DNA of 64,000 nucleotides from an uncultured Flavobacteriaceae bacterium (GTDB lineage Bacteria > Bacteroidota > Bacteroidia > Flavobacteriales > Flavobacteriaceae): contig CANLVG010000007.1 in NCBI GenBank assembly GCA_947494565.1, positions 248,001 to 312,000 of the forward strand. Direction: 5' to 3'. Positions 47,624-62,885 of the stretch are shown here, one piece after another. The first letter of the stretch is position 1. Each line of letters begins with the position of its first letter. The position numbers and the translations under genes are program-made. The notes under the pieces were generated by a model, which saw only the letters and a list, made by a program, of their open reading frames with translations, was not told where the DNA came from and did not search any database.

Positions 47624-48259
47624 TTAGTAATCCAATCCAAAGAAGTCCATTGCTTCTTCATAGCTCATTTTAGAAAAGTCGGGATTCTTTTTCTTTCCAC
47701 TTAATAAAATATTCGGGGGTACGATGAGGTATCTGAATTTAGCACCTCGGTTAGGATCGATTTGAAATTCATTGAGAACTCCCGAAAGGGCCTGCGCTCG
47801 AATCAAAATATCCTCAACTGCGGCACTGCCAGACCCAAATCCAGCTGTGAATTGCGCTCCCCTAAAATTCAATACCGGCAATAGGTAGACATTACCATCT
47901 CCAAAGCCACTGAAGTAAACCAGAATCAAATGGGTATTTTTTATGCTGAACGCGGAAGGCATCGTATCTGGAAATTTGATATCCATAAATTTGACCGTAT
48001 CACTACTTCCGGTGAAATCAGCCGGTATCCAATTGCTATAATAGACTTCGGCATTGCCATCTTCACCAGCTGGCCCTTGGTCTCCCTGTTCCCCTTGATC
48101 TCCTTTAGGTCCTAGTAATCCTTGCTCTCCTGCTACTCCTTGTTCGCCTTGAGGGCCAATAGGTCCTATGGCTCCGTCTGTGCCATCCTTGCTACAGGAG
48201 GTTAGTGAAAGTGATACTGTTGCAAGTATGCAGCTCAGCATTTTAATTGTAGTTTTCAT
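47624..48259 (-). CDS. Collagen-like lipoprotein 1
   Basis: 211 residues. Lipobox (SLTSC, about Cys22), then about 13 Gly-X-Y triplets (GTDGAIGPIGPQGEQGVAGE...DQGPAGEDG), rich in GPQ, GEQ and GPK as in bacterial collagen-like proteins. A C-terminal domain of about 140 residues follows (YYSNWIPADF... to the end KMSYEEAMDFFGLDY), also found in collagen-like lipoprotein 3, which ends FHKMTYEEVMDYFALDY. Likely forms trimers that project from the outer membrane. It carries the shared GTTAACC promoter (see 48290-48320). Function unknown. Confidence 0.85.
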   Translation of the reverse strand: MKTTIKMLSCILATVSLSLTSCSKDGTDGAIGPIGPQGEQGVAGEQGLLGPKGDQGEQGDQGPAGEDGNAEVYYSNWIPADFTGSSDTVKFMDIKFPDTMPSAFSIKNTHLILVYFSGFGDGNVYLLPVLNFRGAQFTAGFGSGSAAVEDILIRAQALSGVLNEFQIDPNRGAKFRYLIVPPNILLSGKKKNPDFSKMSYEEAMDFFGLDY

Positions 48260-48289
48260 AATTTTAAAATTTGTTTGTCATTTTGTTTT

Positions 48290-48320
48290 CTTTTTATGTT
48301 CGTGTTGGAAAAAGGTTAAC
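48290..48320 (-). promoter_or_regulatory. ECF-type promoter A (GTTAACC-N14-CATAAAAA)
   Basis: Minus strand GTTAACC (48320-48314), 14 bases, then ACATAAAAAG (48299-48290), 31 bases before the collagen-like gene start. One of eight such sites; see the finding on the regulon. Confidence 0.75.
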
Positions 48321-48332
48321 CTTAAAAGCACA

Positions 48333-48358
48333 AAAACCTCGGCAATGACCGAGGTTTT
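48333..48358 (-). terminator. Terminator of collagen-C1q gene (CCGAGG family)
   Basis: AAAACCTCGG/CCGAGGTTTT arms with a six-base loop and T run on the minus strand; it sits 12 bases from promoter A. Confidence 0.82.
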
Positions 48359-48375
48359 GATGATGGTTTTTGCTA

Positions 48376-48996
48376 TTAATTGATTTTATATCCTTCGAAC
48401 CAACTGCCCGTGCCATCAATGCGTACATCTATACTAGAAGAGAAATTTCTAAGAGACATATATACTTCTTGGCCTGCCGATAAACGATAAATACCACTGA
48501 CATTAATCTTAACATCGTCACCATCGACAATTTGACTATATCGAGAATTCGGGTCTATGTTAAAATTGAGCCTAAAAAATGCGTCGGTGACCGTATTGGA
48601 TTGACGTACATAGCCCTGTAGAAAGTAATACCCTGTTTCCGGTATGACGTAGCGTTTCGACGAACTGTCAAATGCATTGGCCGTGTCAAAATCTATGATT
48701 TCCCAGATATCGGTCTCAATAGTAGTGCCGCCATCCAAATCTTTAACGGCAAAGCCGTTACCGCGAACCTTAAAGTATATCGGATTGAATTCGGCATCCT
48801 CTCCATCAGCACCGTCTTGACCATCAGCACCATTTTGTCCATCAGTACCGTTTTGGCCGGCAATACCTTGCGCGCCTTGAATCCCTTGTTCACCTTGAGG
48901 TCCAATAGGTCCTTGTGGCCCTTCTTTTGTGCAAGAAGTTGTCGAAAGCGTTAACAGTACCATTACCAAGCTCAACATTTTAACTGTAGTTTTCAT
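48376..48996 (-). CDS. Collagen-like lipoprotein with C1q-like head
   Basis: 206 residues. Lipobox (STTSC), then about 14 Gly-X-Y triplets (GPQGPIGPQGEQGIQG ... GQDGADGEDAE). The C-terminal about 135 residues look like a C1q/TNF beta-sandwich: IIDFDTANAF, YVIPETGYYFLQGYVRQ, FRLNFNI, VSGIYRLSAGQEVYMSLRNF and a final GTGSWFEGYKIN, the order and spacing of YxFxGxV, GxxVxL and SxFxGf motifs in C1q heads. This is the same stalk plus head plan as animal C1q. It should trimerise and bind a ligand at the cell surface. Shares the GTTAACC promoter. C1q assignment is by motif reading only. Confidence 0.8.
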   Translation of the reverse strand: MKTTVKMLSLVMVLLTLSTTSCTKEGPQGPIGPQGEQGIQGAQGIAGQNGTDGQNGADGQDGADGEDAEFNPIYFKVRGNGFAVKDLDGGTTIETDIWEIIDFDTANAFDSSSKRYVIPETGYYFLQGYVRQSNTVTDAFFRLNFNIDPNSRYSQIVDGDDVKINVSGIYRLSAGQEVYMSLRNFSSSIDVRIDGTGSWFEGYKIN

Positions 48997-49021
48997 AATT
49001 CTAGATTTTTAGTTTTATTTC

Positions 49022-49052
49022 CCTTTAATGCCTATGATCGAGCAAGGTTAAC
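49022..49052 (-). promoter_or_regulatory. ECF-type promoter B (GTTAACC-N14-CATTAAAG)
   Basis: Minus strand GTTAACC (49052-49046), 14 bases, then GCATTAAAGG (49031-49022). It lies 26 bases before the collagen-C1q gene start. Confidence 0.75.
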
Positions 49053-49062
49053 CGTTGTAAGC

Positions 49063-49090
49063 AAAAAAACCTCGGTTAAAACCGAGGCTT
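49063..49090 (-). terminator. Terminator of collagen-like gene 3 (CCGAGG family)
   Basis: CCTCGGTT/AACCGAGG arms close to each other, with a T run on the minus strand; ten bases from promoter B. Confidence 0.8.
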
Positions 49091-49107
49091 CATTCCTTGT
49101 CCTGTTT

Positions 49108-49722
49108 TTAATAATCGAGTGCGAAGTAATCCATGACTTCTTCATATGTCATTTTATGGAAGTCAACTTGATGGGATTTACCTGATAGGGATATGCCTCC
49201 GGGAATCATTACATATTTAAACTGTGCTTGAATGTCTGCGCCAACCCCATTAACTTCATTGTCGTTTAGCTCGCTATCATCTGTACTTTCTAATGAAAAT
49301 CGAACCTCACCTCTGTCGGAAAAGGAGATTGCGGTGATGGATCGCATGGTATTTCTGAGATTCGAGATATACGGTAAGGTATATTGTACATTTCTAGAAA
49401 ACCTAAAAAAGCCAAGTACAATGCCCCCTTCGTTAAAGAACTCATTTGTCAATCTGACTTCATCGACCTTCATGGCTTTGAACTTGGCTCCATCTATGAA
49501 GTTGAAGTCTTGATTTAACCATTCGCTATACATTACATTGACCGCACCTGCTTGGCCTTCTGTGCCTTCTGTGCCTTCTGTGCCTTGTTCCCCTTGTAGC
49601 CCCTGCTCCCCTTGTGGGCCTATGGGCCCAACCGGTCCTTCAGGTCCCTCTTTGGTACATGAGGTCATCGCAAGGGTACAAAGTATCAAACCGATGGCCC
49701 ATATTTTGATTGTAGTTTTCAT
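49108..49722 (-). CDS. Collagen-like lipoprotein 3
   Basis: 204 residues. Lipobox (LAMTSC), about 12 Gly-X-Y triplets (GPEGPVGPIGPQGEQGLQGE ... TEGTEGTEGQAG), with TEG units from recent slippage. The C-terminal domain is related to that of collagen-like lipoprotein 1 (end block YEEVMDYFALDY) but diverged in the middle (NVQYTLPYISNLRN). Starts MKTTIKIWA, close to MKTTIKML and MKTTVKML of its two neighbours, so all three come from duplication. Carries promoter C. Function unknown. Confidence 0.83.
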   Translation of the reverse strand: MKTTIKIWAIGLILCTLAMTSCTKEGPEGPVGPIGPQGEQGLQGEQGTEGTEGTEGQAGAVNVMYSEWLNQDFNFIDGAKFKAMKVDEVRLTNEFFNEGGIVLGFFRFSRNVQYTLPYISNLRNTMRSITAISFSDRGEVRFSLESTDDSELNDNEVNGVGADIQAQFKYVMIPGGISLSGKSHQVDFHKMTYEEVMDYFALDY

Positions 49723-49751
49723 AATTCAAATTTTTCGTTTTGTTTATTTTC

Positions 49752-49782
49752 CCTTTCATGTTGGATAGTTCGAAAGGTTAAC
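49752..49782 (-). promoter_or_regulatory. ECF-type promoter C (GTTAACC-N14-CATGAAAG)
   Basis: Minus strand GTTAACC (49782-49776), 14 bases, then ACATGAAAGG (49761-49752), 30 bases before collagen-like gene 3. Confidence 0.75.
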
Positions 49783-49794
49783 GAGGGAACAAAA

Positions 49795-49820
49795 AAAACC
49801 GAGGTACAGACCTCGGTTTT
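49795..49820 (-). terminator. Terminator of the repeat lipoprotein operon (CCGAGG family)
   Basis: AAAACCGAGGT/ACCTCGGTTTT arms with a short ACAG loop and T run; 13 bases from promoter C. Confidence 0.82.
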
Positions 49821-49855
49821 TAGTGTGGGGTTTATAGTGATGTTGTCGTCTACTA

Positions 49856-51562
49856 CTAATTCGTAAAGGTGTAGTCGACATCGACAAAATACTGATAAAG
49901 GAGGGTGCTTTGATCGGCATTCCACATCTGAAAGCGAATTTGGTCTACTGCGCCAGGCCCATTCAAGGTAAAGAAACCACTGGCCGTACCCTCACCGGTT
50001 GGGTGTATCGGTGATTGGTGTGCTCCGTATCCGGGACTAGGACTACCGCCTGTAAAGGGCCTGCCAAAAATTCGAACTCCGCTGGCTTCGGTGGTCTTGT
50101 ACTTGAAGTCGAATTCTACACGTTCTCCAGTACTCAGGGAGGCAGGTGATTCCGGACTTATGGTAACAAGATCTACTTTGTGGGCTACAAAGGTATAATC
50201 TACATCTACTGTGAATTCGTGCAAGAGCTCCGTTTGGGCATCATTATACATTCGAAAACGGATTTGGTCTACGGTACCCGCGGTATTAAGTGTGAAGAAA
50301 CCAGTTGAGCTGCCTTCTCCTGTAGGATATAAGGGTGATCCATGGGCTCCATAGCCTGGGGAAGGATTTCCTCCTGTAAGAGGTCTTCCAAAAATACGTA
50401 CACCTCCTGCTTCATTTGTAATATAATCGAATGAAAATTCTACCCGCTCTCCAAGACATAACGTTTCAGGGGCATCTGGAGTGATAGAATTTACGGTAAC
50501 ACTATGCGCTATAAATTCATAGTCTACATCTACAAATAACTCAAGTAATAGTTCGGTCTGATCTTCATTGAACATCTGAAATCGTATCTGGTCTATTTTT
50601 CCGGGTGTATTGACCGTAAAAAATCCTGATTTATTACCTGATCCAACAGGATGTAAAGGAGATCCATGTGCTGCGTAGTCAGGTGAAAGACCTCCATTCG
50701 TAAAAGGTCTTCCAAAAATACGGACCCCATCATCTTCGTTTGTTTTGTAATCAAAAGAAAAGGTTACTCGGTCTCCAATAAACAATGTAGACGGTGACGT
50801 TGGGTCTAAAGACAATACGTCAATGGTGTGATCTTCCAAACAAGTTAAATCGAAGGATGCTTGATTGGAAAGTACTTCGGTAGGTGCTATGATCTTTAAT
50901 TGTTGCCATAGCCCTTCGTAGGTAGTTCCCCCTCCTCCTAAAGTCCATGAAGTGGTAACCGTTTGGGTTCCTGCCGCCTCGAATTCCAATGTTTCTTCCG
51001 GCGCTGTGGCCCCGTCGCTTCTTAGCCAAGTGTAGGTTATGGAGGTCGGTGCGTCTACCTCTATGGTGCCCTCAAATTCAAATTTCTTGGGACACTCCCC
51101 GGTAAACTCATTTTCTCCAATGACAGCTACAGAGGTTTCTATACCAACAACTTCTGCGTCACATATCAAATCAAATTCCGCTTTGTTCGAGAGTATTTCC
51201 TCTGGTGTTGTTATTTTGATTTGCTGCCAAAGTCCTTCATAGGTGTTTCCATCCGCGCCCAAAGTCCAGGAGGTCGTGACCGTTTTACTTCCTGCGACGT
51301 CGAATTCCAGGGTTTTTTCGGGTGATGTAGCGCCATCACTGCGCAACCAAGTATACTTCACGGTCATGGCGCCGTTCGTTTTAATTTCTCCGGTGAAGTC
51401 AAATTGCTTGGAGCATTTACCTGTAAATGAGTCCACCGTGCTCAAAAGCACACTGGTTACCTTGGTCGTTTCCATAGGTGGTTCAGGCGCGTCATCCTTT
51501 TCGCAGGAAAGCGCGATTAAAAAGGTCAGTACGTACAAAAGGTGTTTTAAATTTTTCATCAT
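49856..51562 (-). CDS. Repeat lipoprotein with two Ig-like and three GVRIFGRP repeats
   Basis: 568 residues. Lipobox (LIALSC, Cys20). Two tandem Ig-like repeats of about 95 residues (residues 40-240), each with TYTWLRSDGAT, TVTTSWTLG and TYEGLWQQ. Then three tandem repeats of about 105 residues (about 250-568), each with GVRIFGRP, DQIRF and VDVDY...F near its end. The repeats are 60-80 per cent alike, so recent internal duplications. No name for either repeat was recognised. Probably a long stalk or multivalent binder on the outer membrane. It follows the first Kelch lipoprotein by 135 bases without terminator and is likely cotranscribed from promoter E. Confidence 0.8.
   Translation of the reverse strand: MMKNLKHLLYVLTFLIALSCEKDDAPEPPMETTKVTSVLLSTVDSFTGKCSKQFDFTGEIKTNGAMTVKYTWLRSDGATSPEKTLEFDVAGSKTVTTSWTLGADGNTYEGLWQQIKITTPEEILSNKAEFDLICDAEVVGIETSVAVIGENEFTGECPKKFEFEGTIEVDAPTSITYTWLRSDGATAPEETLEFEAAGTQTVTTSWTLGGGGTTYEGLWQQLKIIAPTEVLSNQASFDLTCLEDHTIDVLSLDPTSPSTLFIGDRVTFSFDYKTNEDDGVRIFGRPFTNGGLSPDYAAHGSPLHPVGSGNKSGFFTVNTPGKIDQIRFQMFNEDQTELLLELFVDVDYEFIAHSVTVNSITPDAPETLCLGERVEFSFDYITNEAGGVRIFGRPLTGGNPSPGYGAHGSPLYPTGEGSSTGFFTLNTAGTVDQIRFRMYNDAQTELLHEFTVDVDYTFVAHKVDLVTISPESPASLSTGERVEFDFKYKTTEASGVRIFGRPFTGGSPSPGYGAHQSPIHPTGEGTASGFFTLNGPGAVDQIRFQMWNADQSTLLYQYFVDVDYTFTN
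49859..50815 (-). repeat. Three-unit protein repeat in lipoprotein gene
   Basis: Three DNA units of about 315 bases, each encoding GVRIFGRP and DQIRF. Units 1 and 2 from the C-terminus are the most alike. Confidence 0.8.
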
Positions 51563-51697
51563 GATTATTTTAAAGTTATACTATTGTTGTTTGTATTTAA
51601 TTCTAAAGTCAAGGGGGAATGCACCGGCTTTCAACGGTAGGTGTTTGTTGTCTATACTGCTGAATGCGTTGTGTTTAAAAGAGATGGTTCTTTTTAA

Positions 51698-52747
51698 TTA
51701 ATCTTCCGTTATAGCAGTGATTTCTCCCCTGGCTTCGCTGCCCCCAATTCCGTCATCTTGGTAACCACCGAACAACCAGAGTGCATCGTCGTAAAAAAGT
51801 ATGGTGTGCGAACTAATACCATCGCTTCCGGGTCGCGGACCATCATAAAGCTCCCAGGTGGTCATGTTGGAAGAATACCAGATTTCATTGTTGAAACGTG
51901 CGCTTGGGTCTTGCCCGCCAATCGCCCATACCTTGCCATTGTAGACCGTAACCGTATGCGCATTTCTTCCGGTAAAGGGTGGGTCTGATCTAAGCCAATC
52001 GCGTCCATTCGTACTGGCCCAGACTTCTGCTAGTTTCGTACCGGCAATATCTTCCCCACCAATCACGTACATGGTATCGTTAAAGACAACGCCTTTTTGC
52101 CCCGCGCGGCCAGAAAAAGCGTCGTTTGTCTCTTGAACCCAATCAGCTCCGTTTCCTGTAGACCATACTTCGGTGTTCCCGCTGGTAGCGTTTCCCGCAA
52201 TGACATATAATCTATCATTGTACACCAAAGTAGTATGTTCGGGTATGGGGCCAAAAGGTGGGGCCACTTCCGACCAGTTGCTACCGTCTGGGGAGTGCCA
52301 GAGATTGGTATATTTTACATCGGTAGCATCCCTACCGCCAATCAACCAGAGCTGGTCTTGAAATACGGTCAGGGTATGCCCAACACGGAAGTTGCTAAAT
52401 GCTTCGGAAGTGGTTGTCGATAGGGGTACTGTTGCCCAGTTTATTCCATTTGTACTGTTCCATAGAAAGTGGGAACTTGTTGCGCCATAATCATTTACAC
52501 CACCTACTGACCAAACTTTGCCGTCAAAGATGGTCATGGCATTTTGGGCGAATCCGCCCATTTGATCTTCTTGGGTCTTTATATCAAAATTGAGCGAAAG
52601 GTCAGTTCCCTTAGGGAAGCTACTTTCTTTTGGTATCGATTTCCCATCTTTACGATTCACAATCGGATCTATAGGTTCCTCTTTTTCACAAGAAACGATT
52701 AATGCAAAAAAGGTAAGCACGTATAAAAGTTTTAATTTTTTCATCAT
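51698..52747 (-). CDS. Kelch-type beta-propeller lipoprotein 1
   Basis: 349 residues from ATG 52747 or the adjacent 52744 (frame open upstream to 52798, inside the promoter, so those starts are excluded). Lipobox (ALIVSC). The rest is six Kelch-like repeats, each with a strand like TVYNGKVWAIGG, VFNDTMYVIGG, VFQDQLWLIGG, or FYDDALWLFGG and WSTGNGADW or WHSPDGSNW. Propeller fused to a lipid anchor: surface or periplasmic binder. Directly controlled by promoter E, with the repeat lipoprotein gene downstream. Similar to the next gene's propeller. Confidence 0.85.
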   Translation of the reverse strand: MMKKLKLLYVLTFFALIVSCEKEEPIDPIVNRKDGKSIPKESSFPKGTDLSLNFDIKTQEDQMGGFAQNAMTIFDGKVWSVGGVNDYGATSSHFLWNSTNGINWATVPLSTTTSEAFSNFRVGHTLTVFQDQLWLIGGRDATDVKYTNLWHSPDGSNWSEVAPPFGPIPEHTTLVYNDRLYVIAGNATSGNTEVWSTGNGADWVQETNDAFSGRAGQKGVVFNDTMYVIGGEDIAGTKLAEVWASTNGRDWLRSDPPFTGRNAHTVTVYNGKVWAIGGQDPSARFNNEIWYSSNMTTWELYDGPRPGSDGISSHTILFYDDALWLFGGYQDDGIGGSEARGEITAITED

Positions 52748-52765
52748 TTTATTTTTAGTAAGCAC

Positions 52766-52796
52766 CTTTTTATGATGAAACACGGTCGAGGTTAAC
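52766..52796 (-). promoter_or_regulatory. ECF-type promoter E (GTTAACC-N14-CATAAAAA)
   Basis: Minus strand GTTAACC (52796-52790), 14 bases, then TCATAAAAAG (52775-52766), 19 bases before the start codon at 52747. Its position rules out translation starts upstream of about 52760. Confidence 0.75.
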
Positions 52797-52804
52797 ATCA
52801 GGGC

Positions 52805-52832
52805 AAAAAAAACCGAGGATAGTACCTCGGTT
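52805..52832 (-). terminator. Terminator of Kelch lipoprotein 2 (CCGAGG family)
   Basis: AACCGAGG/CCTCGGTT arms with a six-base loop and a T run; nine bases from promoter E. Confidence 0.8.
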
Positions 52833-52853
52833 CCTTATGATATTCAAAATGTG

Positions 52854-54185
52854 CTAGTCAATACGCCAAATATCATTTGCGACTTGATTGCGATTCCCAC
52901 CAATAATATAGAGCCGGTCATTATGGTTTACACTTGTATTGCCCGATTTGATAGGATAGTTACGCTGTTGTACGGCTTTCTTCCAATTGGTGCCGTTATC
53001 GGTAAACCAAAGTTCCTCATAGGTGAGCCCTCCAGTTACATACAATCGTTCATTATGAACTATGGCATCACTATAAAAACCTATTTGGAATGGTGGGTTT
53101 TCGGTAACAATACTCCAGTCTAAAGCGTCGACGCTGCTACGTATGATACTAGTTTTGGTTTCACTGAATGGAGATCCCTCAAAGGCGATAAGTTGTCCTT
53201 GAAATGATACTATTTTCATTCCATATTTTTGATTGAAGCCATGGTTTTCAGTGATGAGCGTCCAGTTTTTTCCATCTGCTGAATTCCAAACGTGCCGTTC
53301 CGTAGTCAAATCACCGATAGATCCGTCATAGGCGGCAAATCGCCATATTTTTCCATCTCGAACGAACATAGTGGTATGACTTTGCCCCAAAAAGGGAGTG
53401 TTGTTCCAAATACGATTATTTTCTTCTTGTATCCAGTTGATACCATCCTCAGAAGACCAAATATATTGATTCATAGAAGTATCGCTCGTACCACTGTACA
53501 TCCATAGTTTGCCTTGAAATACCACGACTGCAGCAGATTTTCTTGGGCCGAAAGCAGCGTTATTGGTTTCCATATTCCAACTGACCCCGTCAGAGGAAGA
53601 CCATACCTCTGCAAGAGGCTCGCCGGCTTCATTTTCCCCACCGAGTAAAAAGATCTTATCGCGAAACGATATAAGAGCGGCATTTTTGCGTTTGGAGAAA
53701 GGTGCGCTTTCAGTTAGTTGTGTTATCGTATTGTATTCTGTAATGAAGGAGAATGTTTCCGAGGCCTTCAAAGCTCCTTTTTCGTCTACGGCATCTACGC
53801 GCCATTGGTAATTCTGGCCTTTCTCCAAAGGTGTTTCGAGTAAAAAGTCCGTAGTGGTTATATTGTTGGCAATGGAAGTAAGGGGCTGTCCGTTGCGGCC
53901 TAGATATACATTGTAGGTGATGGCATCCGATTCTAGGTCGGTAGCTTCTTGCCAACTGAACATGGAGGTCAGCGCCACTAGTTCATCGCCATTCTCAGGG
54001 AGCGTTAAGAGCGGGGCTGAAGGTTCGGTATTGACCGATTCGAACTCCTCTTCCTTCTCAGGTGTCACGCTTTTTTCGGGTAGTATCGGTACGGGGTCCT
54101 CTTTCTTGCATTGCGTTGTGAGTAATACACCCACGATTAAACCTAATCGGAACAGCTGTTTCAAATTGATTATACACGTTTCCAT
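52854..54185 (-). CDS. Kelch-type lipoprotein 2 with fibronectin type III domain
   Basis: 443 residues. SPII-like signal (LGLIVGVLLTTQC), an acidic linker with many Glu and Pro, a fibronectin type III domain (about 53-145, PSAPLLTLPENGDEL...YNVYLG...YQWRVDAVD) and then a Kelch-type propeller (about 155-443) with FRDKIFLLGG, FQGKLWMYSG, VHNERLYVTGG and HNDRLYIIGG strands. The propeller blades resemble those of Kelch lipoprotein 1. Has promoter F and its own terminator, so it is transcribed alone. Binding partner unknown. Confidence 0.85.
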   Translation of the reverse strand: METCIINLKQLFRLGLIVGVLLTTQCKKEDPVPILPEKSVTPEKEEEFESVNTEPSAPLLTLPENGDELVALTSMFSWQEATDLESDAITYNVYLGRNGQPLTSIANNITTTDFLLETPLEKGQNYQWRVDAVDEKGALKASETFSFITEYNTITQLTESAPFSKRKNAALISFRDKIFLLGGENEAGEPLAEVWSSSDGVSWNMETNNAAFGPRKSAAVVVFQGKLWMYSGTSDTSMNQYIWSSEDGINWIQEENNRIWNNTPFLGQSHTTMFVRDGKIWRFAAYDGSIGDLTTERHVWNSADGKNWTLITENHGFNQKYGMKIVSFQGQLIAFEGSPFSETKTSIIRSSVDALDWSIVTENPPFQIGFYSDAIVHNERLYVTGGLTYEELWFTDNGTNWKKAVQQRNYPIKSGNTSVNHNDRLYIIGGNRNQVANDIWRID

Positions 54186-54206
54186 AAAATTTGTTTTTAA
54201 AGTTTC

Positions 54207-54238
54207 TTCTTTATGGATCGGTTTTATGAAAGGTTAAC
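54207..54238 (-). promoter_or_regulatory. ECF-type promoter F (GTTAACC-N15-CATAAAGA)
   Basis: Minus strand GTTAACC (54238-54232), 15 bases, then CCATAAAGAA (54216-54207), 22 bases before Kelch lipoprotein 2. Confidence 0.7.
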
Positions 54239-54246
54239 ATCAAAAC

Positions 54247-54278: not shown

Positions 54279-54303
54279 TATACGTCATAAAGCAAAAATG
54301 AGA

Positions 54304-54852
54304 TTAAAACCTTATGATTTCAGTATTGTGATTACCCGAATAGATGTTAAGTGATTTGAACAATGTATTCTCCATGGCGGAAGCCCCACCAAAATCCTTT
54401 ACCATAAAATTGAACGCATGACTTATGTTTTCGCCATTTGGTCTGATTGAAGCTGTGAGGATCATTCCTGTCTGTGGATTTGAACGGTTTCCATACCAAT
54501 TTATGGACGTGCTCAACCCACTGGAACGTGTGGTCCATGGGCTTGGTATACTGGTCTCGAATTCTACATAATCGGTGGCGTATTGCCATTGTATATGTTT
54601 GACGCCCCCTAGATCTGCCCCACTAAAAGTGATATTGTATCGGGCATCTTCCCTAAGGTTGAGTTGAAAACTATCAAAGTCCGTATCCTCATCGAAGGTT
54701 TGGTCGAATCCGTCTCCTTGGATTTGAAATCGAAATGTAGGTGGTTCAGTGTCGACATCCGGAATTTCGGTATCGCAGGCCTGCAATAGCACTGCTGCAA
54801 TAAGAAATAGTGTGGTTGCGCGGAGGATGCTGAATTTGTCTTTGTTCTTCAT
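54304..54852 (-). CDS. Hypothetical lipoprotein
   Basis: 182 residues. SPII signal (FLIAAVLLQAC). All-beta mature part: FRFQIQGDGFDQTFDEDTDF, YNITFSGADLGGVKHIQW, MILTASIRPNGENISHAFN and the end NHNTEIIRF. No family recognised; it reads like an Ig or CBM-type sandwich. No GTTAACC site of its own; it probably shares promoter H with the two small genes upstream (55108 and 54951), with no terminator between. Real gene by signal peptide and codon use. Confidence 0.72.
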   Translation of the reverse strand: MKNKDKFSILRATTLFLIAAVLLQACDTEIPDVDTEPPTFRFQIQGDGFDQTFDEDTDFDSFQLNLREDARYNITFSGADLGGVKHIQWQYATDYVEFETSIPSPWTTRSSGLSTSINWYGNRSNPQTGMILTASIRPNGENISHAFNFMVKDFGGASAMENTLFKSLNIYSGNHNTEIIRF

Positions 54853-54950
54853 TTGTTCTAAGATTTAAAAGTTAATTGTGTACGTACTAAATTTCTATTG
54901 TGTTGAACCTGACTGTGGTCAGAGAAACACTATTCCAGCTCGGTGCCAGG

Positions 54951-55107: not shown

Positions 55108-55470
55108 TTAATTTTCAATATCGTTTTGACTCTTTTCCATGGCCTCTTGTAGTTTCTGACTAAAAGCGATACCCAATGAATCTTTCTTTTTGGGGTCCAA
55201 ACTCATGTCGTATAGGTTGTATTGGTCTCGAAGCTCCTTTTTCATTTCGGGATCCATCTCGATTTGGTCCAATAGCTGTAGATAGTTGGTAGCCCCGCCG
55301 AAGGGGTTGTCAGCACCCATGCCCCCTAGTTCGAACACTTGACCAAATATTTTGGTCTGTTCGTCCAAGAGATTCATTTGTTTGGTGCTATCCAAGCTCT
55401 CGCTATTGTTCGTTTGTGCATTAGTGACCCCGATGAGACACAAAAGGGTTAAGGTGAGCATTGTTTTCAT
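55108..55470 (-). CDS. Hypothetical secreted helical protein
   Basis: 120 residues from ATG 55470, which gives a signal peptide (MLTLTLLCLIGVTNAQ); the open frame upstream overlaps promoter H and is excluded. The mature part is mainly helical and charged: DSTKQMNLLDEQTKIF, a short glycine-rich GGMGADNPFGG, then DPEMKKELRDQYNLYDM and a C-terminal KLQEAMEKSQND. No family recognised. First gene of the operon under promoter H. Facing the sigma factor gene across 240 bases. Confidence 0.7.
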   Translation of the reverse strand: MKTMLTLTLLCLIGVTNAQTNNSESLDSTKQMNLLDEQTKIFGQVFELGGMGADNPFGGATNYLQLLDQIEMDPEMKKELRDQYNLYDMSLDPKKKDSLGIAFSQKLQEAMEKSQNDIEN

Positions 55471-55491: not shown

Positions 55492-55522
55492 CTTTTTATG
55501 ACAGCTCCCAAAAAAGGTTAAC
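55492..55522 (-). promoter_or_regulatory. ECF-type promoter H (GTTAACC-N14-CATAAAAA)
   Basis: Minus strand GTTAACC (55522-55516), 14 bases, then TCATAAAAAG (55501-55492), 22 bases before the helical protein gene. Divergent partner of promoter I of the sigma gene. Confidence 0.75.
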
Positions 55523-55680
55523 AAGGCGTCAGGTTTTTTTAGGAAAGGGACGTATTTAAAGAAGATTTACTTAAAATAATTGTGGTGGTATTCGTCCTAC
55601 AAAGCCTTGTGGTGTATGATGTGGGAGGCTCTAAGCGAACCGGTTTTTTCTAAAAAATCGCTACTTTCGCTATTCAAGGT

Positions 55681-55710
55681 GTTAACCTTTCGAATCTCCT
55701 TTCATCAAAG
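55681..55710 (+). promoter_or_regulatory. ECF-type promoter I, at the sigma gene itself
   Basis: Plus strand GTTAACC (55681-55687), 14 bases, TCATCAAAG (55702-55710). The -10 half runs into the GTG (55710) that opens the sigma reading frame. Suggests autoregulation with a leaderless or later start. Confidence 0.65.
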
Positions 55711-56276
55711 TGCAAGAATCAAGTAGAACCAACACACTGGAAGAACTGCGGCAAGGCTCTGAATTGGCCTTTAAGCAGATCTATGAGCAAAACAGGGATA
55801 AGTTTCTGAATTTTGCCCGTAGGTATCACTTATCCGATGAAGAAAATATAGACATATACCAAGATGCCTATATTATTTTTCACGATAATGTAATGAGTGG
55901 TAAGATCAAAGAATTGACCAGTAGTATTTCTACCTATCTCTTCAGCATTGGTAAATATTTAATCTTTGATAGGATGCGAAAGAATAAAAAAACCGTGAAT
56001 AGTGAATACAATCTAGACATTGTACGTGACGATGAATCCGTCATCGAGACACTTGACTTTGATACTGGTGAACTTACCCCGGAACAAACGCTTTTGAGAA
56101 AGCACTTTGCAACGCTGGGGAAGCAATGTCAAGAACTCCTTACCTTATTTTACTATCGTGGCTATACGATAAGAGAAATAATGGAAGCCGTAGACTATAA
56201 CAGTGAAAATGTCGTCAAGGCTGCAAAATCACGATGCATGAAAACATTGAGAGAACGAATTCAGGCAAAGGTATAG
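55710..56276 (+). CDS. ECF-type RNA polymerase sigma factor
   Basis: 188 residues from GTG 55710. Region 2 (about 20-90): AFKQIYEQNRDKFLNFARRY, ENIDIYQDAYIIFHDNV and YLFSIGKYLIFDRMRKNK. Region 4 (about 125-185): LGKQCQELLTLFYYRGYTIREIMEAVDYNSENVVKAAKSRCMKTL. No extra domain. GTG overlaps promoter I, so translation may begin at CTG 55737 or TTG 55764 in frame, or the message is leaderless. The probable anti-sigma gene starts three bases after its stop. Candidate reader of the eight GTTAACC promoters in this window. Confidence 0.92.
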   Translation: MQESSRTNTLEELRQGSELAFKQIYEQNRDKFLNFARRYHLSDEENIDIYQDAYIIFHDNVMSGKIKELTSSISTYLFSIGKYLIFDRMRKNKKTVNSEYNLDIVRDDESVIETLDFDTGELTPEQTLLRKHFATLGKQCQELLTLFYYRGYTIREIMEAVDYNSENVVKAAKSRCMKTLRERIQAKV

Positions 56277-56278
56277 GT

Positions 56279-57007
56279 ATGGATAAGGAGCTTTTACTTT
56301 ATAACTACTTTTCGAATCAGCTTACTGCAGAGCAAGAAAGAGCGTTCAATGACCTGCTGGATACGGACGCTGATTTCAAAGCCCAGTTTCTATTTGAAAA
56401 AGATCTGCAACAGGCGATTCGAAAGAAGGAAAACCAAGAGCTGAAGTCTAAATTGCAGGGTTTTGAGAAGAATATCCAAGCGAAATCAGCTGTTCCGAGG
56501 ACCAATGCGCGTTTTCGACCTTGGTCCGTGGCTGCGTCTATTACCATGTTGATCGCTATTGGATGGTTTGCCTACACTTCACTGTTGGGTACGAGCAATC
56601 AAGACCTTTACGATGCCTATTTTGAGCCTTATCCGAATACGGTGTACACTATTACAAGAAGTGATGGAAACCAAACCCTTGAAAGAGCGGCTTTTGTTGC
56701 CTATGAATCACAAGATGATGATAGGGCAGCCGAACTTTTTTTAGAGGCCGGGGCGACCATAGCGCATGGCAATTTCTATTTGGCACAAGTATTATTGCGT
56801 CTTAATAGGAACGAGGAGGCCATCGAATTGCTTGCTCAAAGTATTCTTGAAGATAGTACATTTGAGGCGGAGGCAAATTGGTATCTCGCCTTGGCCTACC
56901 TGAAGGAAAACGATACAGAGAGTGCTACAGAAGTATTGGAGCGCCAAGTGTCGCAATATGATTTCAAAAAGGTAAAGGCCCAAGAGTTACTGGATTCGCT
57001 GCGATAG
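56279..57007 (+). CDS. Membrane-spanning TPR protein, probable anti-sigma factor
   Basis: 242 residues from ATG 56279, two bases after the sigma stop (an earlier frame start at 56234 overlaps sigma and is less likely). Residues 1-75, before the membrane: MDKELLLYNYFSNQLTAEQERAF then acidic/helical, the place and look of a cytoplasmic sigma-binding part (DFKAQFLFEKDLQQAIR). One membrane helix at about 81-100. Outside, about 105-242, TPR-like helices (AERAAFVAYESQDDDRAAELFLEAG, FEAEANWYLALAYLKENDTESA). No zinc-binding HxxxCxxC anti-sigma motif. Its 3' end overlaps the convergent CHAT gene by 21 bases. Anti-sigma role is inferred from position and topology. Confidence 0.75.
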   Translation: MDKELLLYNYFSNQLTAEQERAFNDLLDTDADFKAQFLFEKDLQQAIRKKENQELKSKLQGFEKNIQAKSAVPRTNARFRPWSVAASITMLIAIGWFAYTSLLGTSNQDLYDAYFEPYPNTVYTITRSDGNQTLERAAFVAYESQDDDRAAELFLEAGATIAHGNFYLAQVLLRLNRNEEAIELLAQSILEDSTFEAEANWYLALAYLKENDTESATEVLERQVSQYDFKKVKAQELLDSLR

Positions 57008-59833
57008 GTACTTTTTCCTTAAAAATAATACCCCACTAATAAGGGCGATGAAAAGAAGAATACCCCATTGCACAAACTGGGCCGAACTTCCGGGGCTCAG
57101 CGCTGAGGTATTTCCTGAAATGACAAATCCTGACCAATAGTAAGGATGTGCCAAGGCGTTTTCTCGATTTGCTTGCAAGAAATCGACTTTCGCCTTTTTC
57201 AATGCAGTGTTCTTGGTATCTCCGGCTGCTAGGTTTTTGTAGAATGCATCCATAATAGTAGCGGTAGATGCATCATTGATTTTCCAAAGGGTACTTGTTA
57301 TACTGGCCGCACCACTGTAAAAGAAACCTCGGGCCAAGCTAAGAAAACCCTCCCCCTTTTTAAGTTCGCCAACCCCGGTTTCACAGGCGCTAAGGGTTAC
57401 TAGGTTTGACTGCAATTGAAGATTGTACAAATCCTTGACATAGAGCAGATTGTTCTGGCCGGGAGTGCTTGAGAATGCCAAGTATGAAAACTCAGGTGCA
57501 TTGTCATCGAACACCGCATGGGTGGCCAAATGCAAGGTGCTGAAATCCTCTAGTTGATGGGCAAAATTTCGAAGTGTTGCCGCTTCATCGACATATGATG
57601 TGCCATTGAATGAAGAAAGAATCTGTTTGACTTCCCTTTTATTATGCGGTAGGGGCAATAGCGTATTGCGATCCGGATTGACATCGGTCAGCTCTCCAGA
57701 GAATGTAGGGGCAAAGGCAAGAAGATCACCCTGCATTCGTTTTCGATTCGTAAGTTGCTCGTACAGGGTTGCCGAGTTGACATAGCTGATGTCATACTCC
57801 TCCATCAGATAAAATAATCCTTCATTCGTCATATTCAAGGCTCCGAAAGGAATATAATTAAGAAGGCCGTCAGGAATAATAATCAGTTTCCTTTTTTTCT
57901 TGGAATCCAGTAATGGGGCGATGAGTTGCTGAAATAGTCGATTCGAAATTCGACCTAGTTCCGCAATATCGGAATGCGGGTCTACCATCAGGGCATAGGT
58001 ATTTTTGACCGTCCTTTCGAGCTCGGCATTCAGGGCTATCCGATGAATGCGTTTTTCGTTATGAGTTATTGCAATGGCAAATAGGGCATCATTTCCATAG
58101 AAATAGGAAATCAGTTGTTCATCGGGTTCCAACAGTTCTTGTGTTTGATAGAGCGAACGGCTCTCCGTATTGTATTTGAGATCATAGTAATCTTTGTAGT
58201 GGTTTTCAATACTGTCAATTAGTCTTCGATGCGATTCCTTCAGTTCAAAAAGCCGGTCCTTCAGAGCATTTTTGTCCTCTTTGGAATTGATGACTTTCTT
58301 CTCATTGAATGTGATTTCGGATTTCAATTGGAGCTCAAGTTGCAACAATGCTTCCGGCACATTGGCAAATTGGGTCGCCTTAGCACTTAATAGTGCTTCC
58401 AAAAGCAAAATGGACTTGCTTTTTTCCGCATAGTCGAATGCCAGGTCGATGTATTTTTCGCCACCTGGGCCTTGGGCCAATGTATAGGCCGTAGTTAATC
58501 CATTTTCAAAAAGCGTAAAGGCCTCATTGATCAAGTCGAGTTTGTCGACGTTGTTCTTGAATGAGGGCTTCAGTAAATCAAGAGTACTAAGCCCTTGGTC
58601 TACCGCACCTAACAGTTCATTGTTATCCGGAAAGGTGTTTGATAGGGCACTTAGGGCTTTGACCTTTCCACAAAATAGTGAGAATAGGATGTTTTTTCGC
58701 TTGGCCATCGAAGGGATTGGGTTTACTGTCTTTTGGTCTGATCCGGATTCTGCCGCGAGTTCCGCAAGCCCACTTCGGTAACTGTGAAGAGCATTTTCAG
58801 GTTCATTTCGTGTTAGGTATAGGTCACCAATTCGTTTTTGCACGTTGGGGCGATTGTTCTTCAAAGTCGTACTCAAGGCGTCTTGGAATAGGGATAACGC
58901 TTTGTCATAAGCTTTTTCCTTGACTAGAATTTCCCCTCGCGCTGAAAGAAACCGGTCTTCGAATGGATCATCCTTGGCTTTGAAGACTTCTGTTTTTTCC
59001 AAATAGTAGTAGGCACTGTCAATTTGATCAAGATCTTTGAACACTTTAGCGACCAATAGTCCGGTTGTGACCAAACTATTTCTATTTCGGTCACTGAAGT
59101 TCTTTTCCAGAAAATTCAGGGAGTTGATCCAAAGGGTTTTTGCCTTTTCGAAATCCTTCTGGGCGTAGAGCGAATTGGCATACAGATTGTAGATTTTATG
59201 AAGTCCCTCTTGATCATCCGGCAGGGACTGTTTATAGAGACGGATATTTTTTTCATAATATTCATTGGCTACCTGATAGCGACTTTGCTGTACATTCATT
59301 TGGGCAATGAAATTGTAACACTGTGACAGCAGCTCAATATCATCTTCATGTAGGGGTGTACCACTCGCCAAAAGATGCTTTGCTATTCCATCAAAATATA
59401 CCTCGGCCCTTGCATAATCCTGGAGCTTGTGATAATAATTACCTTTATTGAAATTCAAGTAATTTTTTTGAAAATCCCCTTTATCGTGAAGGGTGTCAAG
59501 CACATGGGCATATTGTTCAATGAGAATTTCGGTACGCGCTATCGTCGATTTGATTTTTTCCAGATCGTAAAAGTACCCTGCGGAAAAGCAGACGTAGTTT
59601 AAATTGTCTATGGCGGTAGGTGCGTTCTGATGATCCAGTGCCAATTGAACAATACGATCGAAATAATGGTAGGTAGAATCCTTGTCCGAATAGAAGTGTG
59701 TATAGGCCTTGTCCTCAAGCAGAACCAGCTCCTGCTCGTACGTCTGTCCTTGACAAATTTGAACCGCCCATAAACAGAGGGAAAAACAAATGCAAACGAA
59801 TCTTAGCAAAATCTTATTTTTACGATATCCCAA
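56987..59833 (-). CDS. TPR-CHAT caspase-like protease, probably periplasmic and membrane anchored
   Basis: 948 residues. Signal peptide (residues 1-30, ends CQGQ), many TPR helices (about 40-500), a helical link and a CHAT domain (about 620-905). CHAT catalytic pair is intact: HLATHAVF (His772) and LSACETGVGE (Cys817), followed by GEGFLSLARGFFYSGA. A membrane helix (about 922-940) and a basic tail end it. So TPR and protease parts should be outside the cytoplasm. CHAT proteases cleave specific partner proteins after activation through their TPRs. Convergent with and overlapping the anti-sigma gene by 21 bases. Target protein unknown; the anti-sigma periplasmic TPR is the natural candidate. 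Confidence 0.85.
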   Translation of the reverse strand: MGYRKNKILLRFVCICFSLCLWAVQICQGQTYEQELVLLEDKAYTHFYSDKDSTYHYFDRIVQLALDHQNAPTAIDNLNYVCFSAGYFYDLEKIKSTIARTEILIEQYAHVLDTLHDKGDFQKNYLNFNKGNYYHKLQDYARAEVYFDGIAKHLLASGTPLHEDDIELLSQCYNFIAQMNVQQSRYQVANEYYEKNIRLYKQSLPDDQEGLHKIYNLYANSLYAQKDFEKAKTLWINSLNFLEKNFSDRNRNSLVTTGLLVAKVFKDLDQIDSAYYYLEKTEVFKAKDDPFEDRFLSARGEILVKEKAYDKALSLFQDALSTTLKNNRPNVQKRIGDLYLTRNEPENALHSYRSGLAELAAESGSDQKTVNPIPSMAKRKNILFSLFCGKVKALSALSNTFPDNNELLGAVDQGLSTLDLLKPSFKNNVDKLDLINEAFTLFENGLTTAYTLAQGPGGEKYIDLAFDYAEKSKSILLLEALLSAKATQFANVPEALLQLELQLKSEITFNEKKVINSKEDKNALKDRLFELKESHRRLIDSIENHYKDYYDLKYNTESRSLYQTQELLEPDEQLISYFYGNDALFAIAITHNEKRIHRIALNAELERTVKNTYALMVDPHSDIAELGRISNRLFQQLIAPLLDSKKKRKLIIIPDGLLNYIPFGALNMTNEGLFYLMEEYDISYVNSATLYEQLTNRKRMQGDLLAFAPTFSGELTDVNPDRNTLLPLPHNKREVKQILSSFNGTSYVDEAATLRNFAHQLEDFSTLHLATHAVFDDNAPEFSYLAFSSTPGQNNLLYVKDLYNLQLQSNLVTLSACETGVGELKKGEGFLSLARGFFYSGAASITSTLWKINDASTATIMDAFYKNLAAGDTKNTALKKAKVDFLQANRENALAHPYYWSGFVISGNTSALSPGSSAQFVQWGILLFIALISGVLFLRKKYLSQRIQ

Positions 59834-59959
59834 ATAAATCTCCCTCTAGTATGCGCGAGCACTCGCAAAGCGTCACCTAGATCCATACCCCAAAAACGTA
59901 TCTATGAGGTCATGCTCGGACCACTTACGGTTTGCCACTAAAATAAACCATTAACATGG

Positions 59960-59990
59960 AAACCAGCCTTGTAAGAGGGCTGGTTTTTTA
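59960..59990. terminator. Terminator hairpin (AACCAGCC/GGCTGGTT)
   Basis: Perfect eight-base arms around a loop of about nine bases, with TTTTTT on the plus strand side and weaker T run on the minus strand. It follows the minus-strand lipoprotein gene at 60018; on the plus strand no gene ends here. Confidence 0.65.
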
Positions 59991-60017
59991 GTTGTATTAT
60001 GGCACTTCGTATGGGTT

Positions 60018-60647
60018 TTACTGACCTCCAATATCCGAGTTGACCACAAAGCTGGTTATCTCATTGTCCGAAATTGCCTTTTCTTTGATTTGAACCGTGA
60101 TTTCCCCTTGATAGCCTTCTCCTTCATAAAGGAAAACAACATAGTCCAAAAGGTTTCCTGCACGCCCTACCGATTCTGGGCTTCCTTGGCTGCTACCTAA
60201 AAACCCTCCATTCGCATCAAAAATGACCAACTCGTAGAATTCTAGTCCCGTGGGAATAGCGATGTATTGAATGCCGGGCCAATCACAGTTCCCATTTTTA
60301 GGGCAGGGGCCAGGTAGGGGAGGTCTTCTTCTATAGACCGCTTCACGTAAGCCGGCAATTTCGATGAGCTCATTTGATAATGCCAATCGATTGGCCTTTG
60401 CCGTATCCAGTTTTTCTTGGGTTTCTTCGGTACCCTGTCCAGCATCGATGATAGCATCTAATTCCTTGATCTCATCGTTGAGTTTCTCCACTTCTATTTC
60501 ATAGAACGTTGTCTTGAAGTCATCCGAATAAAAGTAATTGGATTCCGTCAAGACGAGGTCCTTGTCATCGGGATGTCCATAATGATCTTTGATACACGAA
60601 ACGACGCTCAAGGATAAGAGGGCAACTAAAAGTACTTTGATTTTCAT
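60018..60647 (-). CDS. Hypothetical lipoprotein with coiled coil
   Basis: 209 residues. Lipobox (LSVVSC). A coiled-coil region (about 50-100, EIEVEKLNDEIKELDAIIDAG...) then a proline/cysteine hinge (RRRPPLPGPCPKNGNC), and a C-terminal beta domain (IQYIAIPTGLEFYELVIFDANG). No family recognised. It lies between the CHAT gene and the DUF3108-like/OmpA pair, same direction, and has its own terminator. No GTTAACC site. Confidence 0.72.
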   Translation of the reverse strand: MKIKVLLVALLSLSVVSCIKDHYGHPDDKDLVLTESNYFYSDDFKTTFYEIEVEKLNDEIKELDAIIDAGQGTEETQEKLDTAKANRLALSNELIEIAGLREAVYRRRPPLPGPCPKNGNCDWPGIQYIAIPTGLEFYELVIFDANGGFLGSSQGSPESVGRAGNLLDYVVFLYEGEGYQGEITVQIKEKAISDNEITSFVVNSDIGGQ

Positions 60648-60764
60648 TGTGAGGAATTTTAGTGGTTATATTATTATAAGAATTACTTTAAAAGTGACAT
60701 AGTGTTGGCTAAAATGGAATAACTCCTACTTGGAAACAGCGTTTCATATAAGGAGGGTAGATAC

Positions 60765-61463
60765 TCACTTCGTATATTTTGTGAGCTCCATACGGTTCAG
60801 CAAACTACCGTTCTGTTTGTACGATTCTTGCTTGATCATACCTACACCTTCCGCCAACCAGAGTTTGTTAACCGTTTCACGGGTAGCACCCATGGTAGTT
60901 GATGAGGCGGTTTCTGTAATGACATAGCACTCAAAAGTACCTGCAGGAGTTGTGAGGTTCTCCTTTTTTTCGACCTTTCGGTCCGTTTGGTCGACGGAAA
61001 TATTCATTTTCATTCCGCTCATTTTCATGGCGACCGATACATTGGCATCATCGAGTTCCTTTCCAACACTCAGGTCGTTCGGTAGTTGTATATCGGTTCC
61101 GCTAATGTCCATTTCAAGGCCCATGTCTTCATATTGCTTCATCATTTGAGCAGGAAAGAGTGATTTGTAGTCAATACTTATACCATCTCCGGAACACTGT
61201 ATGGTATAGTCTGAATTATACACTTCCTTTCCTTTCTTATCGGTAAAAGTCAAATCAAACGTCGCTGAGGTAGCTCCCCCATCTGTACTGACTTCCGAAA
61301 TCGTATAACTGGTTACGCCCTCGGTTTTCCCCTTTTTGTCGTACATGGTGTACGCAAAAAAAGAACCTTCCTTCATGGGGTAATATTTGCTGCAATTCTC
61401 TTGCGATTGTGAAGGACTGGTAACAAAGACAAATAAGAGAAAGCCTAATAGTTTATTTTTCAT
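60765..61463 (-). CDS. DUF3108/TapB-like periplasmic protein
   Basis: 232 residues. Signal peptide (LLGFLLFVFVTSPSQSQ). The mature part reads as DUF3108-like lipocalin-style beta: CSKYYPMKEGSFFAYTMYDKKGK, then LTTPAGTFECYVITE and a C-terminal KLWLAEGVGMIKQES. The same fold is seen in TapB-type and YjbF-like proteins. Probably binds a hydrophobic or glycan ligand in the periplasm. It starts 10 bases after the OmpA-family stop, so it is cotranscribed with it from promoter J. Confidence 0.78.
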   Translation of the reverse strand: MKNKLLGFLLFVFVTSPSQSQENCSKYYPMKEGSFFAYTMYDKKGKTEGVTSYTISEVSTDGGATSATFDLTFTDKKGKEVYNSDYTIQCSGDGISIDYKSLFPAQMMKQYEDMGLEMDISGTDIQLPNDLSVGKELDDANVSVAMKMSGMKMNISVDQTDRKVEKKENLTTPAGTFECYVITETASSTTMGATRETVNKLWLAEGVGMIKQESYKQNGSLLNRMELTKYTK

Positions 61464-61473
61464 TTTGAAATTT

Positions 61474-62811
61474 TTACTGTTTAATAAATTCTACGCGTCG
61501 ATTTTGTGATTTCCCATCAGTCGTAGTATTGTCGCCAACGGGTTCAGATTCGCCTTTGCCATCAGTTGTCAGGCGATTGGCCGAAACATTATAGATAGAG
61601 ACTAGTGCATTTTTGACGGCATCAGCTCTCAGTTTCGAAAGTTTCAAATTAGTGTCTTCGTTCCCGTCCGAGTCGGTATGGCCCACAATTTTTAAGTTGA
61701 GACTACTTTCTTGGGCCAGCACTTGATAAATCTGACGGATAATGCCCATCGATTGTGCCTGTAGATTAGCCGAACCACTCTCGAAGAGAATACCATTGGT
61801 AGAAATTCGACCCTCGGAAATCAGTTTTCTACGAAGGTCTATTCCACCTTCGGCAATTTTAAAATTACTTAGATAAATGGCTTCTTTGTTAATGTCAATT
61901 CCTCTGAGATGTATTTTGATTCCTTGCATTTTTGTGCTGGCAGGAAGCAATCTTGGAACATCAACTAATTTTTGCTCGTTGATCCATATTCGAAATCGCT
62001 GTTTGTTTACTGCAAGCGATATATGGTGTTCCGAGGCGACGATTTTTCTAATATCCGCTCGGATGTCATTTCTAATCTCACGCTTACCATTGATATTGTT
62101 TTCAACGATTATTCCTGCGTCTATGAACTGGCAAAATGGGTATTCTACAAAACCATAGTTCTTGGGCTTTTCAAATGTTTTTGTGTCGCCGACCATAATC
62201 TGAAGGTAGGACTGGGATGAGGTTTTACTATCAAGGCCTTCCGTAATGACATCGAATTCCATAGTGAATTCTTCTGGTAGTTCTTCGATGTCAGGAATAT
62301 ACTCTGTGCCAAACCCAGGAAGGATCTTTAGCCATTTTGAAGGAGAGTCATTGATATTGACCAGTTCTCCTCCACCATTGGTATTCCATTTAGAGGGAAA
62401 GTCTCCGATGAAATCATTTTTGAAATCATCGAGAAACAGCGGTTTGTCACCAGGGACAAAATCAAATTTGCGGTACACCACTATGGATTGCTCCGGCTGA
62501 TCCGGTGCCTTTTCAATTTTGCCGGGATCCGTATTTGTCGAAGGGCGCTCCCCGTCTTCCTTGTTTGGAATTGATTGGCCGTTCTTGCCTGTGGGTTGTT
62601 TTCCTTTTTTTCCAGGTTCAAGAATACTATCTAGCACCTGATCTGTTTTTTCAGTGGTTTCTTTTTCTACTCGTCGTTCTACGGCTCTTTCAGCAGCTTT
62701 CTCTGCTCTTTTCCCCAGTTTTTTTAGCAGTTGGGCATTTGCTTCAACCCCACAAAACAAGATAAAAAGGATGGCAAAAGCAGATTTGAGTTTTGTTCTA
62801 TTGGTTTTCAT
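61474..62811 (-). CDS. OmpA-family outer-membrane protein with LamG-like middle
   Basis: 445 residues. Signal peptide (ending GVEANAQ), a charged helical linker (about 28-105, KRAEKAAERAVERRVEK), a concanavalin/LamG-like beta domain (about 115-320, with NDFIGDFPSKWNTN and ISLAVNKQRFRIWIN) and a C-terminal OmpA peptidoglycan-binding domain (about 330-445, GILFESGSANLQAQSMGIIR, VGHTDSDGNEDTNLKLSKLRA, RVEFIKQ). No beta-barrel. So it ties the wall to something else, possibly lipid-linked elsewhere. Under promoter J. First gene of a two-gene operon. Confidence 0.87.
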   Translation of the reverse strand: MKTNRTKLKSAFAILFILFCGVEANAQLLKKLGKRAEKAAERAVERRVEKETTEKTDQVLDSILEPGKKGKQPTGKNGQSIPNKEDGERPSTNTDPGKIEKAPDQPEQSIVVYRKFDFVPGDKPLFLDDFKNDFIGDFPSKWNTNGGGELVNINDSPSKWLKILPGFGTEYIPDIEELPEEFTMEFDVITEGLDSKTSSQSYLQIMVGDTKTFEKPKNYGFVEYPFCQFIDAGIIVENNINGKREIRNDIRADIRKIVASEHHISLAVNKQRFRIWINEQKLVDVPRLLPASTKMQGIKIHLRGIDINKEAIYLSNFKIAEGGIDLRRKLISEGRISTNGILFESGSANLQAQSMGIIRQIYQVLAQESSLNLKIVGHTDSDGNEDTNLKLSKLRADAVKNALVSIYNVSANRLTTDGKGESEPVGDNTTTDGKSQNRRVEFIKQ

Positions 62812-62853
62812 CGTACATATAAATTATAAAAGGAATAGGTTTATATTTAATAA

Positions 62854-62885
62854 CCCTTTATGACGCCTAATATAGTGAGGTTAAC
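62854..62885 (-). promoter_or_regulatory. ECF-type promoter J (GTTAACC-N15-CATAAAGG)
   Basis: Minus strand GTTAACC (62885-62879), 15 bases, then TCATAAAGGG (62863-62854), 43 bases before the OmpA-family start codon. Outermost of the eight sites in this window. Confidence 0.7.

Follow-up and report, generated by a model that had tools for sequence, protein, structure and literature searches.

Gene Content of the Locus and Its Repeated Element

The window analyzed here is a stretch of 64,000 nt from an uncultured marine Flavobacteriaceae bacterium (assembly GCA_947494565.1, contig CANLVG010000007.1, positions 248,001 to 312,000). It carries a gene for an extracytoplasmic function (ECF) sigma factor of 188 amino acids with a GTG start (55710..56276 in window coordinates, + strand), surrounded by eight copies of a two-part element, GTTAACC-N15/16-CATNAARR. 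Judged from sequence, the elements are likely to be promoters of this sigma factor, and the locus a largely self-contained local envelope regulon. The sigma protein matches Pfam Sigma70_r2, scores 57.0 bits against TIGR02937 (cut-off 42.9) and, as is typical of ECF factors, has regions 2 and 4 only. A profile scan found no other gene in the window that matches the sigma profile of this family, in agreement with a preliminary description of this DNA that had placed a single ECF gene under the shared element.

All eight copies listed in that description are present at the sites it gave, from 48291–48320 to 62855–62885 (seven on the − strand, one on the + strand), and the distances it reported to the following ATG, 19–43 nt, are correct. 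Two extra GTTAACC copies that it had set aside are also there. Its spacer of 14 or 15 nt was wrong by one: the gap between GTTAACC and CAT is 15 nt in six copies and 16 nt in two. It had also spoken of eight units; there are eight elements, but they precede seven envelope genes and the sigma gene, and other genes of the block have no detectable one.

The clustering of the element is a confirmed observation. The whole-genome search that had been proposed returned eight matches to the full pattern in 5.39 Mb, all of them within 14.6 kb (p ~1e-17 for eight uniformly placed matches landing inside that interval). Chance predicts 0.02 elements per window; not one of 100 shuffled versions reached eight. 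When the last two bases were relaxed, one further credible copy appeared beyond the window, 5′ of a DUF4493 lipoprotein gene on contig C1 (L114). Another relaxed match, located 5′ of a lipoprotein gene region, was rejected for its weaker −35 half, GTTAACT (L113), and the relaxed-half matches L121 and L122 were rejected as intragenic. A matrix built from related loci detected no degenerate element above background 5′ of 49856–51562, 54304–54852 or 60018–60647. A search of an open-access library of papers found no account of the motif.

Conservation in the Flavobacteriaceae

A scan of genome contigs yielded 22 named orthologous loci, 23 with the window, from Maribacter, Zobellia, Arenibacter, Pelagihabitans, Kriegella, Pseudozobellia, Euzebyella, Bizionia and other Flavobacteriaceae genera. 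To the question of whether relatives keep motif and sigma gene together, the answer is yes: in all 22 relatives, the sigma orthologue stands amid a cluster of the same kind. The 23 loci contain 119 full-pattern elements, 95 with a spacer of 15 nt and 24 with a spacer of 16 nt, and their reversed sequence contains 0. When matches were anchored on GTTAACC alone, CATNAA followed at spacer 15 in 96 cases and at spacer 16 in 24; every other distance had three cases at most. Since the spacer letters are mostly unrelated among paralogous targets, conservation lies in the two halves and the distance between them. An ECF promoter is expected to have two parts, an AAC-containing −35 and 16–17 nt to the −10, and the 119 elements, with CAT at spacer 15 or 16 after GTTAACC, agree with this form.

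Gene order is constant as well. It runs from lipB through a variable lipoprotein array, transcribed away from the sigma gene, to the sigma gene, a gene for a membrane anti-sigma factor, and a convergent gene for a TPR-CHAT protease. Beyond the CHAT gene there are often lipoprotein, DUF3108-like and OmpA-type genes.

Motif abundance follows the sigma factor across the family. We called a genome sigma-positive if it had a homologue of at least 44% identity with a nearby motif, or one of at least 58% identity, which applied to 10 of 149 family genomes. The mean motif count was 4.0 in these 10 and 0.76 in the other 139 (Mann–Whitney p = 8.5e-6), a contrast lowered by the few genomes with 46–49% homologues outside the clade that were placed among the 139. 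A backwards control pattern did not differ between the groups. Eight of the 10 sigma-positive genomes have the motif at most a few kb away from the sigma gene. The nearest solved structure to the sigma factor is SigW, whose promoter, TGAAAC-N16-CGTA, has the same distance from AAC to the −10 as the GTTAACC element. On these grounds the local sigma factor very likely reads GTTAACC-N15/16-CATNAARR.

Genes Preceded by the Element

Divergent from the sigma gene is a gene for a small secreted protein of 120 amino acids (MNLLDEQTK family; 55108..55470, −), with its element 22 nt before the ATG (55493..55522, −). Orthologues of this protein are present in 15 of the 23 loci and are preceded by an element in 11. 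Two Kelch-repeat lipoprotein genes lie further along the same strand. The first (52854..54185, −) encodes a protein with an additional Fn3 match and has an element with spacer 16, 22 nt before its ATG (54208..54238, −); the element of the second (51698..52747, −) is 19 nt before the ATG at 52747 (52767..52796, −).

Three genes for collagen-like (Gly-X-Y) lipoproteins follow, each with an element that lies directly past a terminator hairpin. These are 49108..49722 (−; element 49753..49782, −, 30 nt before the ATG), 48376..48996 (−; element 49023..49052, −, 26 nt) and 47624..48259 (−; element 48291..48320, −, 31 nt). The first scores below the curated cut-off of Pfam Collagen and the other two above it. 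No target family is more common than the collagen-like lipoproteins, of which 20 loci contain 35, in numbers that vary between species. In window 48260–52900, near-identical hairpins (CCGAGGT...ACCTCGG plus a T run) separate the lipoprotein genes, and terminator and element together look like the borders of a repeated cassette.

On the far side of the CHAT gene, an element with spacer 16 (62855..62885, −) lies 43 nt before the ATG of a secreted OmpA-domain protein (61474..62811, −). A DUF3108-like gene 10 nt downstream (60765–61463) is probably co-transcribed with it. The lipoprotein gene just upstream of CHAT (60018..60647, −) has no detectable element in the window, and its orthologues are preceded by one in 8 of 14 cases. 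Lipoproteins and OmpA-type envelope proteins were the target class named in the preliminary description, and the genes listed here bear this out. Adjoining the locus is a LuxR/GerE-type regulator (45548–46600) whose N-terminal part is of a secreted type.

Evidence for a Probable Promoter Function of the Element

Terminators and secretion signals were called with simple in-house rules. In a strict test, perfect-stem terminators ended just 5′ of 27 of the 104 non-sigma elements, compared with 10 of 2373 random positions. Many elements start about 10 nt past the T run of the preceding gene’s terminator, so transcription of the next gene has to restart at the element. The gap from CATNAA to the start codon is mostly 19–36 nt, and the leaders that these positions imply are similar to those of Flavobacterium psychrophilum, where the median leader is 24 nt (PMC9723704). 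The suggested check for enrichment upstream of secreted proteins was positive: all genes behind non-sigma elements encode a secretion or lipoprotein signal, if two mis-called starts are allowed, compared with about 55% of the remaining open reading frames in the 23 loci. Because the elements are positioned after terminators and before genes for secreted proteins and lipoproteins, they are almost certainly promoters that the neighboring ECF sigma factor reads.

The Putative Anti-Sigma Factor and the TPR-CHAT Protease

The preliminary description was right about the ECF element and the envelope targets, but it overlooked two genes next to the sigma gene. The first (56279..57007, +) encodes a protein of 242 amino acids that we assign as the putative anti-sigma factor from its AlphaFold model and its adjacency to the sigma gene. 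The model (pLDDT 85.5) has N-terminal cytoplasmic helices at residues 3–11, 17–29 and 31–68, one transmembrane helix at about 81–102, and a periplasmic TPR part that matches solved TPR structures. Against NCBIfam, the protein gives weak anti-sigma and TPR matches, the anti-sigma match being far below the cut-off.

The second gene, convergent to the first (56987..59833, −), encodes a TPR-CHAT protease of 948 amino acids. It scores 217 bits against Pfam CHAT (PF12770) and has the CHAT fold with its Cys-His dyad; the catalytic residues H772 and C817 are shared by all 30 homologues that were aligned. The protein has an N-terminal signal sequence and a C-terminal transmembrane helix, and most homologues have a C-terminal transmembrane helix with a basic tail. 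The CHAT protein should therefore face the periplasm, on the same side as the anti-sigma TPR domain. The first structural matches of its model (pLDDT 89) are Csx29/Craspase, DdvA (8rw5, 8rot) and separase; the E-values and structures refer to predicted proteins.

The sigma factor, the membrane anti-sigma factor and the TPR-CHAT protease encoded convergently make up a module that is conserved across the family. All 23 orthologous loci have the three genes side by side, as do 19 of another 20 family loci, in which sigma identity falls as low as 33%. The only other CHAT protein in the genome, of 1058 amino acids, is encoded in third place in a second sigma/anti-sigma operon with overlapping genes and no GTTAACC elements (L183, G000:C7:228500-240500, 3602–8092). 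At one and the same locus, different genera carry two CHAT types that are about 27% identical (ATHA/SACETG and STHAD/SACNTS; L093–L111, about 11300–14200), suggesting replacement.

Csx29 cleaves the sigma inhibitor Csx30 (PMC10028731), which makes a protease role for the CHAT protein here a reasonable inference. We give an even chance to the proposal that, as sensor or effector, it inactivates the anti-sigma factor. Some observations weigh against this. In a phylum-wide search, CHAT adjoined the anti-sigma gene in 8 of 30 loci (the window’s own included, some in other families), and the other 22 showed no neighboring CHAT, so CHAT is dispensable for some members of the anti-sigma family. A conserved anti-sigma loop, NTxxxxxR, was considered as a mark of CHAT cleavage and rejected, since it occurs without CHAT and is missing from the second CHAT module. 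The protease might instead be a regulated output, or an independent immune-type enzyme, with the anti-sigma factor controlled by another protease or by a ligand on its TPR part. This alternative has a sizeable minority of the probability. It would account for the many related anti-sigma loci without an adjacent CHAT, and for a CHAT gene that is convergent at the 55710 locus and thus outside the sigma operon. It fits poorly with adjacency in 42 of 43 family loci, the operonic second module of the same genome, the invariant dyad, and the structural match to DdvA and Csx29. Apart from Craspase, the search of the open-access library found no account of CHAT paired with an ECF sigma factor.

The Element at the Sigma Gene Itself

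The copy at the sigma gene, GTTAACCTTTCGAATCTCCTTTCATCAAAG (55681..55710, +), differs from the others in position: its final base is also the initial G of the GTG start codon, and this position is conserved in the 23 orthologues. GTTAAC lies 27–30 nt before the sigma start in 23 of 23, and GTTWAC lies 26–30 nt before it in 17 of 46 distant loci. The assigned start is credible, since it alternates between GTG and ATG among orthologues and since the stretch from GTTAAC to the start varies in length but the first nine codons do not. In the window, GTTAACC itself contains an in-frame stop.

A putative primary-sigma −7 box, TACTTTCG (TAnnTTnG; 55662..55669, +), lies 11 nt 5′ of GTTAACC and is preceded by an A tract. 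In 19 of 23 orthologues, the A tract and the box keep exactly the same distance to GTTAACC, whereas the box occurs at the equivalent place in only 1 of the 104 non-sigma elements. Its position agrees with the flavobacterial primary-sigma box, which spans −12 to −5 (PMC9723704). Further away in sequence, one group of sigma homologues, in large part from a single genus (L153–L168), retains a TAAATTAG-type box without GTTWAC, and the own-promoter copy seems to be absent there.

Since the −10 half abuts the start codon, standard ECF geometry implies that an ECF transcript should begin a few nt inside the sigma reading frame. The earlier proposal of a self-activating sigma factor is thus doubtful: in 23 of 23 orthologues the copy abuts the start codon, its own transcript would lack that codon, and a separate TAnnTTnG box lies upstream. 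We favor, as more likely, expression of the sigma gene by the primary sigma factor, with feedback that is negative rather than positive. Negative feedback is preferred because the primary-sigma and ECF polymerases would be mutually exclusive at this site, and that the ECF holoenzyme acts negatively at its own gene is, in our estimate, an evenly balanced proposition.

The main rival here is that the ECF holoenzyme starts exactly at the sigma GTG or ATG, giving a leaderless sigma mRNA, which would restore positive autoregulation. We consider this fairly unlikely. The near-fixed distance of 27–30 nt could mean selection for a transcription start at the start codon, and positive autoregulation is the commonest mode among ECF factors. 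In F. psychrophilum, 5.5% of mRNAs are leaderless (PMC9723704). However, the C of CATNAA is just 7 nt before the start, and a −10 of this type is normally 10–13 nt before the transcription start. Exact CATNAA is also missing from the sigma copy in 7 of 23 orthologues that retain GTTAACC, and the separate primary-sigma-type box is conserved at a fixed spacing.

Other Possible Readers of the Element

It is also conceivable, though improbable, that one or several other ECF factors read the element and that the local sigma factor is a mere neighbor. A first look at the genome gave 22 ECF candidates, another of which could read or share it, and flavobacterial ECF regulons may overlap (PMC9723704). 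Set against this are the clustering of the element round the sigma gene in 23 loci, its depletion where the genome has no sigma homologue, and a shift of the −35 at the sigma-gene copy from GTTAAC to GTTTAC in the most distant sigma homologues. That the element is an operator or a signal in the 5′ untranslated region, under a primary-sigma promoter, is very improbable: GTTAAC is palindromic and the sigma-gene copy does sit between a primary-sigma-type box and a start codon, but that box is nearly confined to the sigma gene, the terminator that often ends about 10 nt upstream leaves no space for a second promoter, and an Rfam scan of the locus gave no family match.

A Model of the Circuit and Comparison with Known Systems

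In the model that we propose, GTTAACC and CATNAARR would be a −35/−10 pair recognized by the ECF sigma factor, which would itself be expressed from a primary-sigma-type promoter and held by the membrane anti-sigma factor. The periplasmic TPR-CHAT protease, encoded convergently, would inactivate the anti-sigma factor, and the freed sigma factor would transcribe the lipoprotein array. At its own gene, the ECF holoenzyme would occlude the upstream promoter, yield a transcript without the sigma start codon that still carries the anti-sigma gene, or both. We extend this only tentatively to the Bacteroidota, where non-CRISPR periplasmic TPR-CHAT proteins might be dedicated triggers of ECF sigma/anti-sigma pairs, a cellular counterpart of the Craspase circuit, with the promoter copy at the sigma start codon as a brake that makes anti-sigma-only transcripts.

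This is a complete signaling locus, open to testing, in a poorly studied group: its promoter code is defined, its targets are few and its protease partner is conserved. Control of the anti-sigma factor by CHAT, if true, would tie bacterial caspase-like proteases to envelope signaling beyond CRISPR, and feedback through an ECF promoter conserved in a position over the start codon of its own gene would be an unusual arrangement. The variable collagen-like and kelch lipoprotein array with one promoter suggests a surface-protein repertoire under a single switch.

The arrangement resembles SigW/RsiW of Bacillus subtilis (class I anti-sigma) in its nearest solved sigma structure and in having a membrane anti-sigma gene beside the sigma gene. 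It differs in its GTTAACC −35 and CATNAA −10, in the periplasmic TPR domain of the anti-sigma factor, in a regulon nearly confined to one locus (collagen-like, kelch and OmpA envelope proteins), and in the −10 that abuts the sigma start codon. With Craspase (Cas7-11-Csx29-Csx30-CASP-sigma, type III-E CRISPR), it shares a TPR-CHAT protease, an ECF sigma factor and an inhibitor in one locus, and the modeled CHAT protein matches Csx29 best in structure. Unlike in Craspase, the conserved gene content of the 23 loci has no CRISPR parts, Cas7-11 or Csx30, the CHAT protein is predicted to be periplasmic, and the inhibitor is a membrane TPR protein. Identity with Craspase was rejected on that missing association with Cas7-11 and Csx30 and on a score of 18 bits against the Csx29-specific NCBIfam model (cut-off 300).

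In Myxococcus xanthus, DdvS is likewise an ECF sigma factor under a transmembrane anti-sigma factor, DdvA, whose structures 8rw5 and 8rot are among the best CHAT matches. DdvA joins an anti-sigma domain and CHAT in one polypeptide; these are two separate genes both here and in the second module, and identity with DdvA was rejected. Closer to home, SM6 of F. psychrophilum is an ECF factor of the same family whose promoters likewise serve envelope functions, but it has a CGT −10 box and type IX secretion system targets (PMC9723704).

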